Positions 31,643 to 56,998 of a stretch of 64,000 nt of DNA are shown here, in pieces (within the stretch, counting starts at the first letter, position 1; each line of letters starts with the position of its first letter). The position numbers and the translations under genes were made by a program. Source of the stretch: an uncultured Steroidobacter sp. (GTDB lineage Bacteria; Pseudomonadota; Gammaproteobacteria; Steroidobacterales; Steroidobacteraceae); NCBI GenBank assembly GCA_946478975.1, contig CAMLEO010000004.1:1-64000 (forward strand), given 5' to 3'. The notes under the pieces are model-generated. The model was given only the letters and a program-made list of their open reading frames with translations. It ran no database searches and was not told the DNA's origin.

Positions 31643-31730
31643 TGATGCAGAGTACCGCAGCTTGACAAGTTGCGCAGCCGTGTGGTGCCATTCGCGGGCT
31701 TTATTACACGGTTCCGCATTCACACAGCTC

Positions 31731-31844
31731 ATGTCTGCAGCCACGCACGCTTCTGCCGAACTCGGCGCCACGACGATCGTCGTAGCCAAGCGTGTAGTCG
31801 TATCCGGCCTGCTGCGGCGGGCGGGGTGCGGGATCGGCGTCTGA
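31731..31844 (+). CDS. Putative ilvC leader peptide (attenuator)
   Basis: A 37-codon open frame (ATG 31731, TGA 31842-31844) encodes MSAATHASAELG then ATTIVVAKRVVVSGLL then RRAGCGIGV. Between codons 16 and 28, eight of thirteen residues are Ile, Val or Leu, including V-V, V-V-V and L-L runs. It ends 29 bp before a strong intrinsic terminator and 95 bp before ilvC. This is the classical make-up of a branched-chain amino acid leader peptide. No clear Shine-Dalgarno precedes the ATG, which lowers confidence in the exact start. Confidence 0.6.
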   Translation: MSAATHASAELGATTIVVAKRVVVSGLLRRAGCGIGV

Positions 31845-31916
31845 TTCAATCTTAGGAACGCGAATCGCCACACGAACCCCGCCTCGGCCAGACCGGTGCG
31901 GGGTTCGTTCGTTTTT
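31820..31916 (+). promoter_or_regulatory. ilvC transcription attenuator (antiterminator/terminator)
   Basis: Terminator: CGAACCCCGC (31873-31882) pairs perfectly with GCGGGGTTCG (31898-31907), followed by TTCGTTTTT (31908-31916). Antiterminator: GGCGGGGT (31820-31827), inside the leader peptide just after the Val/Leu codons, is complementary to ACCCCGCC (31876-31883), so the two folds exclude each other. A ribosome stalled at the Val codons (31794-31802) would leave 31820-31827 free; one that reaches the stop codon would mask it and let the terminator form. The mechanism is inferred; the complementarity is directly visible. Confidence 0.7.
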
Positions 31917-31939
31917 AAACCACGCTTTTAGGAGCGCAC

Positions 31940-32935
<996 letters not shown>

Positions 32936-32996: not shown

Positions 32997-33959
32997 ATGC
33001 CCATCAATGCAGCGAAGCACATCTGGTACAACGGTAAGCTGGTCCCTTGGGAAAAGGCGACGGTACACGTACTGGCGCACGCGCTGCATTACGGCTCGAC
33101 GGTATTCGAGGGTGTGCGCGCTTATGGCACGCCGCAGGGGCCGGTGATCTTTCGTTTGCAGGATCACACGCGACGGCTGTTCGATTCGGCGAAGATCTAT
33201 CGCATCGATATTCCCTACTCGCCGGACGAGATCAACACCGCGTGCAAGGAGATCATCAACGTCAACGGGCTGACGAAGGGCGCATACATGCGGCCGTTCG
33301 CATTCCGTGGCTATGGTGAGATCGGCGTCGCGCCGAAGAACATGCCGCCCATCGACACCGTGATCGCGGCGTTCGAATGGGGTGCGTACCTGGGCGCGGA
33401 AGGATTGGAGAACGGCATCGATGTGTGCGTGTCTTCGTGGCAGCGCCTCGCGCCGAACACCATTCCCTCACTCGGCAAGGCCGCGGGAAATTACCTGTCG
33501 AGTCAGCTGATCAGCATGGAAGCCAAGCGCATGGGCTTCGCGGAAGGCATCGGCCTCGGCGTCGATGGCACGATCAGCGAAGGTGCCGGCGAGAATCTGT
33601 TCCTGGTCCGAGATGGTGTGATCTACACGCCGGGGCTCGCGAACTCGATCCTCCAGGGCATCACGCGCGATACGGTCATCACGCTGGCGCGAGCGCATGG
33701 ATTCGAAGTGCGTGAGCAGCCGATTCCGCGTGAGTTCCTGTACCTGGCGGATGAGATGTTCCTCACTGGCACGGCGGCGGAAGTCACGCCGGTACGGTCG
33801 GTGGACAAAATCACCGTCGGTGCTGGCAAGCGCGGTCCGGTGACGGAAGCCATTCAGGCAGCGTTCTTCGGCTTGTTCACCGGGAAGACCGAGGACAAGT
33901 GGCGCTGGCTCGAATCGTGCGAGACCAGCACGCCGACCGCAGTCGCCGGCGCAGCCTAG
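32997..33959 (+). CDS. ilvE: Branched-chain amino acid aminotransferase
   Basis: Class-IV PLP aminotransferase of 320 residues that makes Val, Leu and Ile from their keto acids. Motifs: [25 protein letters not shown], the PLP-lysine region [31 protein letters not shown], and [23 protein letters not shown] precedes the start. Because a strong terminator sits just upstream, it needs readthrough or a compact promoter overlapping that region. Confidence 0.96.
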
Positions 33960-34078: not shown

Positions 34079-35494
34079 ATGACAAGCCAGTCCCCACGCA
34101 CCCTGTTTGAAAAAGTTTGGGAACAGCACGAAGTCGTTCCCGAAAGCGCCGACACTCCGGCGGTGCTGTACATCGACCTGCACCTGGTGCACGAAGTCAC
34201 CTCGCCGCAAGCGTTCCAGGTCCTGCGCTCGCAGAACCTGAAAGTCCGCCGCCCCGAGCGCGTGCTCGCGACGATGGATCACTCCACCCCGACCGATCCC
34301 GACGAAGTGTTCGGCCGCGTGCCGATCAAAGTCGAATCCGCCGCGCGCCAGGTGAAAGAGTTCGAAAAGAACTGCCGTGAGTTCGGCGTCGAGCTCATGG
34401 GCCTCGGCAGCGAATATCGCGGCATCGTGCACGTCATCGGCCCCGAGCTGGGCGCGACTCAACCGGGCAAGACCATCGTGTGCGGCGACAGTCACACCGC
34501 CACGCACGGCGCATTCGGCGCCCTCGCCTTCGGCATCGGCACGACTGAAGTCGGCCACGTGCTCGCAACTGAGTGCCTGCTGCAGCGTCGGCCGAAAACG
34601 CTTGCGATCGAAGTCACCGGCAAACTGCGCCCCGGCGTCACCGCGAAAGATTTAATTCTCGCGATCATCGGCGAGATCGGCGTCTCCGGCGGCACCGGCT
34701 ACGTAATCGAATATCGCGGCTCCGCCATCGAAGCGTTGTCGATGGAAGAGCGCATGACGGTTTGCAATATGTCCATCGAAGCAGGCGCGCGCGCCGGCAT
34801 GATCGCGCCGGATGAAACAACGTTCGCGTATCTCAAAGGCCGTCGCTTTGCTCCGCAAGGCGCGAACTGGGATAAAGCCGTTGCACGTTGGCGCGAGCTG
34901 AAAACCGATCCTGGCGCGCGCTTCGATCGCGTCGTCACCATCGACGCCAACGAGCTCGAACCGATGATCAGCTACGGCACGCACCCCGGCATGGTCGTAC
35001 CGATCACCGGCAAAGTGCCGACGGTCGCCAACGATCCGGTGCACACCAAGGCGCTGACCTACATGGGCCTGACCGGCGGCGAAGCGCTGGTCGGCAAGCC
35101 GATCCAGGTCGTCTTCATCGGCAGCTGCACCAACGGCAGATTGTCGGACCTGGTGCTGGCGGCGAACGTGCTCAAAGGTCGCAAAGTCGCGAGCGGCGTT
35201 CGTATGCTGGTCGTGCCTGGCTCACAGCAAGTGAAGCGCGAAGCCGAAAAGCGCGGCCTCGACAAGATCTTCACCGAAGCCGGCGCTGAGTGGCGCGAGT
35301 CTGGATGTTCCATGTGCATCGGCATGAACGGCGACACCGCCGGGCGTGGCCAATACACGGTCAGCACCAGCAATCGCAACTTCGAAGGCCGCCAGGGTGC
35401 CGGCGCTCGCACGTTGCTCGCGAGCCCAGCAACAGCCGCCGCCGCGGCCATCCACGGCAAGATTGCCGATCCTCGTGAATTTCTGTCGCACTAA
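34079..35494 (+). CDS. leuC: 3-isopropylmalate dehydratase large subunit
   Basis: Aconitase-family [4Fe-4S] subunit of 471 residues. The ATG at 34079 ([19 protein letters not shown]) matches the family N-terminus. Cluster cysteines are in [10 protein letters not shown] and [11 protein letters not shown]; other signatures are [20 protein letters not shown] and [10 protein letters not shown]. Forms the isomerase with LeuD, encoded 11 bp downstream, then leuB. leuA is not in the window. Confidence 0.98.
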
Positions 35495-35505
35495 AGAGCC
35501 CGACC

Positions 35506-36087
35506 ATGCAACCCATTCGCACGATCGAGTCTCGCACCGTCGTTCTGCCGTTCACCAACATCGATACGGACCAGATCATCCCTGCCCGCTTTCTTACGAC
35601 GACCACGCGTGAAGGCCTGGGCAAACAAGCGTTCGCCGACTGGCGCTACGACGCGAGCGGCGCGCCCAAAGCGGATTTTCCCTTGAACAAGCCGGAAGCG
35701 AACGGCTGCACGATTCTGGTCGCCGGCCGCAACTTCGGCTGCGGCTCTTCACGCGAGCACGCGCCCTGGGCGCTGCTCGACTTCGGTCTGAAAGCGGTCA
35801 TCAGCACCGAGATCGCCGACATCTTTCGTAACAACTCGCTCAAGAACGGCCTGCTGCCCATTGTCGTCGACGAAGGCACGCATGCCTGGCTGATGAGCAA
35901 TCCTGGTGCACAGGTGAAGATCGATCTTGCGGCCACCTCGCTCACGCTGCCCAACGGCGCCAGCGCGAAATTTCCCATCGAGGGCTTCGCGCGTTATTGT
36001 TTGATGAACGGCGTCGACGAGCTCGGTTACCTGTTGAAACAGGCGCCCGCCATCGAGCGTTACGAAGCGGCGCATCCTGCGCTGTAA
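35506..36087 (+). CDS. leuD: 3-isopropylmalate dehydratase small subunit
   Basis: Swivel-domain subunit of 193 residues (E. coli 201). Signatures: [17 protein letters not shown] near the N-terminus and [21 protein letters not shown]. Eleven bases after leuC and 39 before leuB. Confidence 0.98.
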
Positions 36088-36126: not shown

Positions 36127-37191
36127 ATGACACAAGCAAGCATCGTCGTGCTCGGCGGCGACGGCATCGGCCCGGAAGTCACGGAACAAGGCACGCGCGT
36201 GCTGGAGGCGGTGGCAACCCGCTTCGGTCATGATTTTCGCTTCGAGAATCACCTGATCGGCGGCGCAGCGATCGATGCGACACAGAGCGCTCTGCCCGCG
36301 CAAACCACATCTGCGTGCGGCACGGCCGACGCAGTGCTGCTCGGCGCTGTCGGTGGGCCGAAGTGGTCCGATCCGAATGCGAAGGTGCGCCCCGAGCAAG
36401 GGCTGCTTGCGATTCGCAAGGCACTCAATCTGTTCGCAAACCTGCGCCCGGTGTCGCTGCATGCGGAGCTATACGATGCATCGCCGTTGAAAGCCGATGT
36501 ATTGAAAGGCACGGACATCATGGTCGTGCGCGAGCTCACCGGCGGCATCTATTTCGGCGAGAAGAAGCGCACCGAAAACTCCGCCAGCGATCTGTGCACC
36601 TATACCGTCGAAGAAATCCAACGCGTCACCCGCGTGGCGGGCAATCTCGCGCGCGGTCGTCGCAAATTCATCACATCGGTCGACAAAGCGAACGTATTGG
36701 AAACATCGCGCCTGTGGCGCAGCACCGTCGAGACAGTGCTGCGTGAAGAGTTTCCCGATGTGAAGTTCGAGCACATGCTGGTCGACTCGGCGGCGATGCA
36801 TCTGATTCGCAAGCCGTCGAGCTTCGACGTGATCCTCACCGAAAATATGTTTGGCGACATCCTCACCGACGAAGCATCGATGCTCGCGGGCTCGCTCGGT
36901 TTGTTGCCGTCTGCATCGCTCGGTGCCGGCAAGTTAGGTTTGTATGAACCGATTCATGGCTCGGCGCCGGATATCGCCGGCAAGGGCATCGCGAATCCCT
37001 ACGGCACCATCCTCAGCGTTGCGATGCTGCTGAGACATTCGCTGGGCCTGAATGAAGAGGCGCTCATGGTCGAAAAAGCCGTCCAGCAGGCGATCGCGGA
37101 CGGGGTCCGGACGGCCGATATTGCCGCCGGAGCCAAGGCGGCGAGCACCGCCGAGGCCGGCGAGGCGGTCGTGGCCAAAATCCTGCGCTGA
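36127..37191 (+). CDS. leuB: 3-isopropylmalate dehydrogenase
   Basis: NAD-dependent oxidative decarboxylase of leucine synthesis, 354 residues. Motifs: [57 protein letters not shown], the metal-binding [20 protein letters not shown], and [19 protein letters not shown]. Last gene of leuCDB; followed by a 438-bp stretch without a protein gene. Confidence 0.98.
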
Positions 37192-40896: not shown

Positions 40897-40960
40897 GTCC
40901 GTAGAGGCAGGTCGCCGTGACCGACCGCCCCAGCACGCAGCCAAGGCAGCTTCACAGCAA

Positions 40961-41081
40961 CTCATCTGTCGGGGCCCGCTGTTGAGCGAGCTCCCCGCAG
41001 GAGTTGGCACCTTTTCGAGATGGTTAGTCTCGACGGTTGCCCCGGCTTCAAAGGGCCTGACCCTCAGCCGGTCTCGATGAG
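40961..41081 (-). promoter_or_regulatory. SAM-I (S-box) riboswitch aptamer upstream of metX
   Basis: Read on the minus strand, the sequence has the S-box core: P1 CTCATC (41081-41076) closing with GATGAG (40966-40961); P2 with GAGGGTCAGGCCCTTTGAA and GCCGGGGCAACC; P3 CGAGA/TCTCG; the conserved AAAAGGTGCCAACTCCTGC; and P4 CGGGG/CCCCG. All four helices and the invariant internal loops are present in the right order. It precedes metX-metB, the expected targets; binding of S-adenosylmethionine should turn them off. Confidence 0.95.
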
Positions 41082-41089
41082 CGTCGGGA

Positions 41090-41180: not shown

Positions 41181-41513
41181 ATGAAAGAGCATCGGGCATT
41201 GACGCCACGCCAGGAGGCGCTGGCGGAACGGGCGCTGTTCAGCGCCATCCTGACGTTACGTAGCATCGACGAATGCCGCGCGTTCTTTCGTGACCTGTGT
41301 ACGCCGGCCGAGCTGCAGGCCCTGGCTGACCGCTGGGCGGTCGTCGCCCTGCTCCAGCAAGGGGTGCCGTACCGGGAAATTCACAAGCAGACTGGCGTCA
41401 GCGTCACGACCATCGGCCGCGTCGCCCGTTATCTGCTCAATGGCAACGGCGGCTATACGCTGGCTGCCGAACGCATGAAGGAATCCAATGACTCAGGGCG
41501 CGCGCGACCATGA
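41181..41513 (+). CDS. TrpR/YerC-family regulator heading the his operon
   Basis: Small all-helical DNA-binding protein of 110 residues. The region from CTPAELQALADRWAVVALLQ through GVPYREIHKQTGVS to TTIGRVARYLLNGNGGY aligns with the TrpR core and the YerC/YecD family, whose members often end in a GNGGY-like motif. It overlaps the hisG start (ATGA), so it is translationally coupled to the his operon. A histidine-responsive repressor is the attractive reading; the co-repressor is unknown. There is no clear Shine-Dalgarno before its ATG. Confidence 0.85.
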   Translation: MKEHRALTPRQEALAERALFSAILTLRSIDECRAFFRDLCTPAELQALADRWAVVALLQQGVPYREIHKQTGVSVTTIGRVARYLLNGNGGYTLAAERMKESNDSGRARP

Positions 41514-56787: not shown

Positions 56788-56884
56788 GACGCGCGCCGCT
56801 CCTTAACTTACGCGCAGCAATTGTACGCCAACGGCTTGCGTGCCAGCTTGCAGTCTCCGAAATCGTTAGCGTAGGATCCGCTCC

Positions 56885-56967
56885 GCGCATGTGACTGGCG
56901 TCAGATGGAGCACACCATCGGGAAGCATGCGTGCGGGATCCAACCCGCTGCGGCCGCTCGCCTGGGC
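56885..56967 (+). promoter_or_regulatory. ZTP (pfl) riboswitch upstream of glyA
   Basis: P1 GCGCATG (56885-56891) pairs with CATGCGT (56926-56932); P2 GATGG/CCATC follows the conserved GTGACTGGCG; ATCGGGAAG is the junction; P3 GCGGG/CCCGC (56933-56948); then the conserved 3' CGCCTGGGC (56959-56967), whose CGCC can pair with GGCG (56897-56900) as the pseudoknot. Downstream, CCTT-CTCG-AAGG (56978-56989) can hide the AAGGAG of glyA, suggesting translational control. The aptamer senses ZTP/ZMP, a sign of folate shortage; glyA is a known target class. Confidence 0.9.
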
Positions 56968-56998
56968 ACCACGTCCACCTTCTCGAAGGAGCGCCGCC

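Follow-up and report, generated by a model that had tools for sequence, protein, structure and literature searches.

A probable ribosome-mediated attenuator with a valine-rich leader peptide upstream of ilvC in Steroidobacter, compared with the ilvC leaders of relatives

How might Steroidobacter adjust the synthesis of branched-chain amino acids (BCAA) to their supply? The question is raised by 64,000 nucleotides of an uncultured Steroidobacter sp. (contig CAMLEO010000004.1; the whole stretch is hereafter called the window), in which a short reading frame rich in valine and leucine codons lies before a gene that the original prediction took for ilvC. Profile searches bear out this assignment, and ilvC is followed by ilvE, leuC, leuD and leuB (Table 1). 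Judging from sequence and folding models, we consider it very probable that a ribosome-mediated transcription attenuator precedes this ilvC-ilvE-leuCDB operon. The attenuation mechanism and this type of leader are textbook knowledge, and classical ribosome-mediated attenuation, i.e. a known mechanism, is our best reading of the ilvC leader. Its elements are a promoter recognisable by sequence upstream of the leader, a leader frame (with predicted translation) containing clustered codons for the products of the operon, an intrinsic terminator between the leader and the first gene, whose U-tract is interrupted in the window, and an antiterminator that is mutually exclusive with this terminator.

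Table 1. Features of the ilvC leader region and the downstream operon (positions in the window).
Feature	Position	Strand	Remark
Promoter: TTGACA, 18-nt spacer, TGCCAT	31662..31691	+	predicted; -10 box matches the consensus at 3/6
Leader peptide ORF	31731..31844	+	37 codons, MSAATHASAELGATTIVVAKRVVVSGLLRRAGCGIGV then stop; without Shine-Dalgarno
Possible control codons Ile16 Val17 Val18 (ATC GTC GTA)	31776..31784	+	
Control codons Val22-24 (GTA GTC GTA)	31794..31802	+	V-V-V in 6/6 Steroidobacter-type leaders
Predicted 1:2 (pause/protector) hairpin	31799-31805/31824-31830 and 31807-31812/31817-31822	+	RNAfold, 30 C
Leu27 Leu28 (CTG CTG)	31809..31814	+	Leu positions -6/-5 of the ilvC leader family
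Antiterminator 5' arm GGGCGGGGT	31819..31827	+	within the leader frame
Cys33 Gly34 (TGC GGG)	31827..31832	+	conserved antiterminator core in the ilvC leader family
Intrinsic terminator hairpin	31872..31908	+	antiterminator arm pairs with its 5' side, 31876-31884
Terminator T-run	31912..31916	+	
Shine-Dalgarno AGGAG of ilvC	31930..31934	+	
ilvC, ketol-acid reductoisomerase	31940..32935	+	TIGR00465, 428.7 bits
ilvE, branched-chain aminotransferase	32997..33959	+	profile search
leuC, isopropylmalate dehydratase large subunit	34079..35494	+	scanned from 34076; ATG start by inspection
leuD, isopropylmalate dehydratase small subunit	35506..36087	+	profile search
leuB, 3-isopropylmalate dehydrogenase	36127..37191	+	TIGR00169, 491.5 bits

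Within the window, the proposed anatomy could be retraced letter by letter. The 37-codon frame with its I-V-V, V-V-V and L-L runs lies where it had been placed, and the perfect 10-bp terminator stem (31873-31882/31898-31907; 11 bp including 31872/31908) begins 29 nt past the leader stop, its U-tract being imperfect in that TTCG separates the 10-bp stem from the T-run. A generic terminator scan limited to loops of 3-8 did not list this hairpin. The claimed 8-bp pairing of 31820-31827 with 31876-31883 is exact and lengthens to nine pairs (31819-31827 with 31876-31884), including a G-U at 31819/31884. When the terminator was held fixed and ∼200 nt upstream of it were shuffled 3000 times with dinucleotides kept, an ORF with 10 or more Ile/Leu/Val among its last 26 codons appeared in 20 shuffles, an unbroken pairing of 8 bp or more in 26, and an Ile/Leu/Val-rich ORF together with the pairing in one; a joint chance origin of leader and antiterminator pairing is unlikely. 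What did not hold was the notion that placing the antiterminator arm within the leader frame makes for an unusually compact design, because Escherichia coli ilvL has its TGC GGG arm in frame (CCG TGC GGG); in thrL, too, an arm lies within the frame. More distinctive are the Shine-Dalgarno-free starts and predicted leaderless leaders described below, and also the apparent exchange of the inner arms of the window terminator.

A riboswitch, a T-box or another Rfam element was ruled out as the identity of the ilvC leader: of the Rfam leader and riboswitch families none reached its cut-off in the attenuator region, where mir-278 was the only match (18.1 bits, cut-off 55; E 0.11). Elsewhere in the window, a SAM riboswitch (40959-41083, minus strand, 79.9 bits) and a ZMP/ZTP riboswitch (56881-56974, plus strand, 55.8 bits) score above their Rfam cut-offs. 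Besides, a YerC/YecD family TrpR-related protein (TIGR02531, 77.8 bits) is encoded at 41181-41513, overlapping hisG at 41510; lying directly before hisG, it may regulate the his operon.

The region upstream of ilvC was compared across 80 loci from named genomes, taken as the top-scoring ones among at least 578 (of which L001-L003 are Steroidobacter, with 89-91% identity), and across 150 genomes of the family to which one of these belongs. Of the 150, 136 had ilvC, and regions from 130 were used. The counts below refer to 129 genomes plus the window, i.e. 130 regions; L193 is outside all counts, and its region (L228) has both terminator and leader. A terminator was found in 118 of the 130 regions and, as anticipated for orthologous loci, leader frame and terminator are kept together in 95, with a leader defined by at least six Ile/Leu/Val in its last 26 codons. 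This threshold is crude: it admits doubtful frames (e.g. L089, L114, L137, L155), and omits Cys-Gly leaders with five Ile/Leu/Val (L159, L163, L167). It was reached in 18.8% of 7080 terminator-anchored shuffles of the 118 regions, as against 95/118 real ones. Combined with a 7-bp antiterminator, it was reached by 75/118 real regions versus 0.9% of shuffles.

Other layouts also occur. Seven loci (L009, L012, L016, L104, L124, L131, L138) share a promoter-like block that reads TTGCATCATAAGAGATTCTGTGGTGCTATT or nearly so and comes with an imperfect inverted repeat; they have no evident leader ORF, and five of them (not L104 and L124) have a terminator. At these seven loci, a DNA-binding regulator may have replaced attenuation. 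Three alphaproteobacterial ilvC loci (L036, L046 and L062, titled Sphingosinicella, Sphingomonas and Oceanicaulis) have BCAA-rich leaders in which an arm GGGAGCGG or similar pairs with the terminator CCGCTCCC, the layout being alike and the letters different. A second, Val/Ile-type leader with a GTG start, reading ATC AAC GTC GTA GTA CCG GTC GTA GCC ATC (L226, L227, L225; reverse strand), lies ∼150-230 nt ahead of a gene for the large subunit of acetolactate synthase and is accompanied by a GC-rich hairpin and a T-run. It was present in all three close genomes examined, namely G001 (Steroidobacter agaridevorans), G130 (same place as Steroidobacter contig L002) and G075 (92% IlvC identity), and counts in favour of the attenuator reading of the ilvC leader.

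Near their end, 63 of the 95 leaders contain Cys-Gly (TGC GGG). In leaders aligned on this motif, position -6 is Leu in 62/63 (CTG 27, CTC 20, CTT 11, CTA 2, others) and position -5 in 50/63, where CTT is the commonest codon (34). Since the synonymous codons vary, it is the amino acid at these positions that looks selected. The competing pairing predicted for orthologous regions is conserved as well: across 89 alignable loci, the family arm GGTGCGGG pairs with CCCGCACC in 72% of alignment cells in register, compared with 34-53% when slid by 1-4 nt. Two-sided changes in the eight core pairs, T-A to G-C in three loci (L189 and, doubtfully, L114 and L137) and G-C to C-G in one (L111), are few because the arm is nearly invariant. 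Protector complementarity to this arm showed no excess over shuffles in 84 loci (mean z -0.12 for the 5' UTR and 0.06 for the control region), in a test that also missed the protectors of seven E. coli attenuators.

A transcript start upstream of 31731, on which the attenuator depends, is predicted at ∼31698 from the promoter-like sequence, which would leave a 5' UTR of ∼33 nt in the window. Its -35 element is conserved in relatives, with a perfect TTGACA upstream in 90 of the 95 leader-bearing regions and a match of at least 5/6 in 94. While a Shine-Dalgarno sequence of -4 kcal/mol or better precedes 94/94 ilvC starts, the same threshold was reached by 5 of 78 leaders with a usable ATG, 21 of 282 random positions and two of seven E. 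coli leaders. Assuming an 18-nt spacer, the leader ATG lies 4-10 nt past the -10 box in 19/78, and in 11 of the 12 outgroup loci with a promoter found (L027-L060) the first in-frame ATG follows the promoter by 6-10 nt. Part of the relatives' leaders are therefore predicted to reside on leaderless mRNA.

Which amino acid the leader senses is suggested by codon usage. Leu is the commonest of Ile/Leu/Val in 79 of the 95 leaders, Val in 15 and Ile in one. VVV within the last 26 codons occurs in nine, namely the six Steroidobacter-type leaders (the window, L082-L085 and L087) plus L172, L197 and L198. In non-Steroidobacter-type leaders, the rare codon CTT makes up 24% of 634 Leu codons, as opposed to 2% of 1005 in 30 ilvC genes, and GTA 24% of 209 Val codons, as opposed to 4% of 759. 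The six Steroidobacter-type leaders have no CTT among 17 Leu codons, and GTA accounts for 38% of their 45 Val codons; therefore, the rare codon is now one for Val and no longer one for Leu. In the window leader itself, GTA represents three of six Val codons versus 6% in four of the operon genes (probability 0.004). By sequence, leucine seems to have given way to valine as the sensed amino acid.

The window also departs from its neighbours in the terminator. Its arms are CCCCGCCTCGG (5') and CCGGTGCGGGG (3'); L082-L085 and L087, which have the leaders closest to that of the window, carry CCCCGCACCGG and CCGAGGCGGGG. It looks as though the inner arms had changed places, a single case and maybe a coincidence. 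Inversion of the whole hairpin was rejected: the arms would fit a flip, but the centre of the loop is oriented as before, which is why we speak of an apparent exchange. The old core GGTGCGGG no longer pairs fully in the window; GGGCGGGGT pairs over 9 bp instead, and with the terminator arm CCCCGCCTCGG the pairing therefore lies ∼6 nt further upstream. In L083, the closest relative, GCT stands in place of the window's GCG (both Ala), and by inspection its T would face C in a window-type helix. A fuller history may be drawn, in which a leucine attenuator of ilvC, common to the whole family, turned valine-sensing within one genus by gaining rare Val and losing rare Leu codons; the exchange of the inner arms in the window lineage would have moved the antiterminator those few nucleotides upstream, where a Leu- but not a Val-stalled ribosome would now mask it, and the leaders would be Shine-Dalgarno-free and partly leaderless. 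As a whole, this history is tentative and somewhat doubtful.

Folding models bear on whether stalling at the Val codons, but not completion of the peptide, frees the arm, as the original prediction held. In the masking model with a ribosome at Val22-24, the terminator core paired with the leader at 0.88-0.97 across footprints of +10, +12 and +14 (0.95-0.97 at +14), compared with 0.43 without ribosome and 0.00 at the stop codon, a value that scores only pairing downstream of the ribosome. An exact count of the 9-bp helix at 30 C yielded 0.10 at Val22, 0.75 at Val23 and 0.80 at Val24. These two models fit the claim, but a looser measure showed weak contrast in the window (0.40 without ribosome, 0.62 at Val23, 0.36 at the stop), and the E. 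coli ilvL control was poorly reproduced, with ∼0 at the Val15-17 stalls and high values only at codons 7-12 and 18-19 (+12 footprint). By the looser measure, untranslated family leaders had a median of 0.69 (at least 0.5 in 82/95) and, with a ribosome at the stop codon, of 0.49 (below 0.3 in only 23/95); E. coli trpL, leuL, hisL, pheL, thrL and ilvL scored 0.03-0.43 without ribosome and ivbL 0.52. This looser measure hints that the relatives may have a three-segment design that is on by default, but the window itself has a predicted 1:2 hairpin. In masking medians of other Cys-Gly leaders, the last stall to free the arm falls, according to the footprint chosen, at -5 or -4 and adjoins the conserved Leu, a matter of modelled geometry and not proof. 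At equilibrium, the finished terminator was favoured at every stall position tried, and the switch must therefore be kinetic, as is taken to hold for attenuators generally.

On the observed and conserved anatomy of the leader we infer stalling, capture during transcription and which amino acid serves as the signal as follows. Transcription would begin at ∼31698 and a ribosome would translate the leader. When charged tRNA-Val is scarce, it would stall at Val22-24, perhaps also at Ile16-Val18, and open the predicted 1:2 hairpin, leaving 31819-31827 free to capture the emerging 5' side of the terminator, so that the polymerase would read into ilvC. When valine is plentiful, the ribosome would cover the arm, the terminator would form and transcription would end. 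Valine would rank first as a signal, with isoleucine and leucine mattering less.

That the window attenuator mainly senses leucine through Leu27-28, with the Val codons secondary, would agree with the conservation of Leu at -6 and -5 despite varied synonymous codons and with the presence of leuCDB in the operon, and masking-model stalls at Leu27/Leu28 also free the arm with footprints of +10 (0.98/0.97) and +12 (0.90/0.80). However, at +14 the values fall to 0.17/0.51, against the high values for Val22-24, and by the exact helix count they are 0.05 and 0.00, followed by 0.00 up to the stop codon. Leu27-28 are, moreover, the common CTG, in a clade whose leaders lack CTT, and Pro replaces the Leu28 position in L087. 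We regard leucine sensing as unlikely; valine is the likeliest signal in the window because rare Val codons replace rare Leu codons in the Steroidobacter clade.

Two readings would deny the leader any sensing role. Sister lineages do show decay: L090, L091, L093 and L094 keep the terminator and have no BCAA-rich leader, no terminator was found in L092, and L088 and L089 exceed the leader threshold with frames that look degraded, probably decaying too. Given the interrupted U-tract and the missing Shine-Dalgarno, the window leader might likewise be a relic whose terminator sets a constant read-through. Yet Val22-24 and the codons flanking the arm are nearly invariant across the six Steroidobacter-type leaders, and the window has kept a 9-bp antiterminator despite its altered terminator arm, which makes decay improbable. 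Still further from the data is a leader ORF arisen by chance beside an ordinary terminator or a protein-binding leader. Regions without a terminator (12/130), those with a terminator and without such an ORF (23/118) and the subset that uses a different conserved promoter, most of which has a terminator but lacks an evident leader ORF, would fit it, but it is contradicted by the shuffle tests, by the bias in codon usage, by the peptide alignment and by the register of the antiterminator. Nor does the upstream gene need a terminator there, since it is divergent (leucyl aminopeptidase family; best 340.6 bits, below the model cut-off of 432). We deem this explanation very improbable and retain the valine-responsive attenuator.

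Among known systems, E. coli ilvL (ilvGMEDA) resembles the window in its BCAA-rich leader, its pathway and the TGC GGG core of its antiterminator, which lies within the reading frame. Its terminator arm CCCCGCACCG is that of most relatives, whereas the window has CCCCGCCTCGG; moreover, ilvL precedes ilvGMEDA and the window leader ilvC, with Val GTA as the window's rare control codons. E. coli ivbL (ilvBN) shares the run of Val codons and, with the family, the high no-ribosome score, but belongs to another operon and has longer Val runs. In Corynebacterium glutamicum ilvBNC, the control codons CUU (Leu) and GUA (Val) are the very rare codons enriched here, and the attenuator is discussed as a leaderless mRNA; it differs in its actinobacterial host, three overlapping hairpins and another gene order (PMC11857589). 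Several attenuator leader peptides of Streptomyces lividans are reported as leaderless (PMC8079986); they resemble the predicted leaderless part of the ilvC family, though in a different phylum, and the window has a predicted 5' UTR of ∼33 nt. Further attenuator literature was compared (PMC2965389, PMC1262725, PMC10272879, PMC13236596). Leaderless attenuator leaders are reported in Actinobacteria; no gammaproteobacterial case appeared among the matches listed. No title or abstract among the matches listed concerned the ilvC leader studied here, and an earlier description is possible; Vitreschak et al. 2004 would be the likeliest place for one.

In summary, the present work adds a well-sampled branched-chain attenuator family outside the enterobacteria, at a site without an Rfam match in the window. 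These ilvC leaders make it possible to trace the evolution of amino-acid specificity, of codon choice, of pairing and of the spacing between ribosome and arm. The selective-charging theory of control-codon choice by Elf and Ehrenberg (PMC1183508) could be tested on a natural Leu-to-Val switch, and leaders that are leaderless or Shine-Dalgarno-free would also be informative about the synchronisation of ribosome and polymerase.
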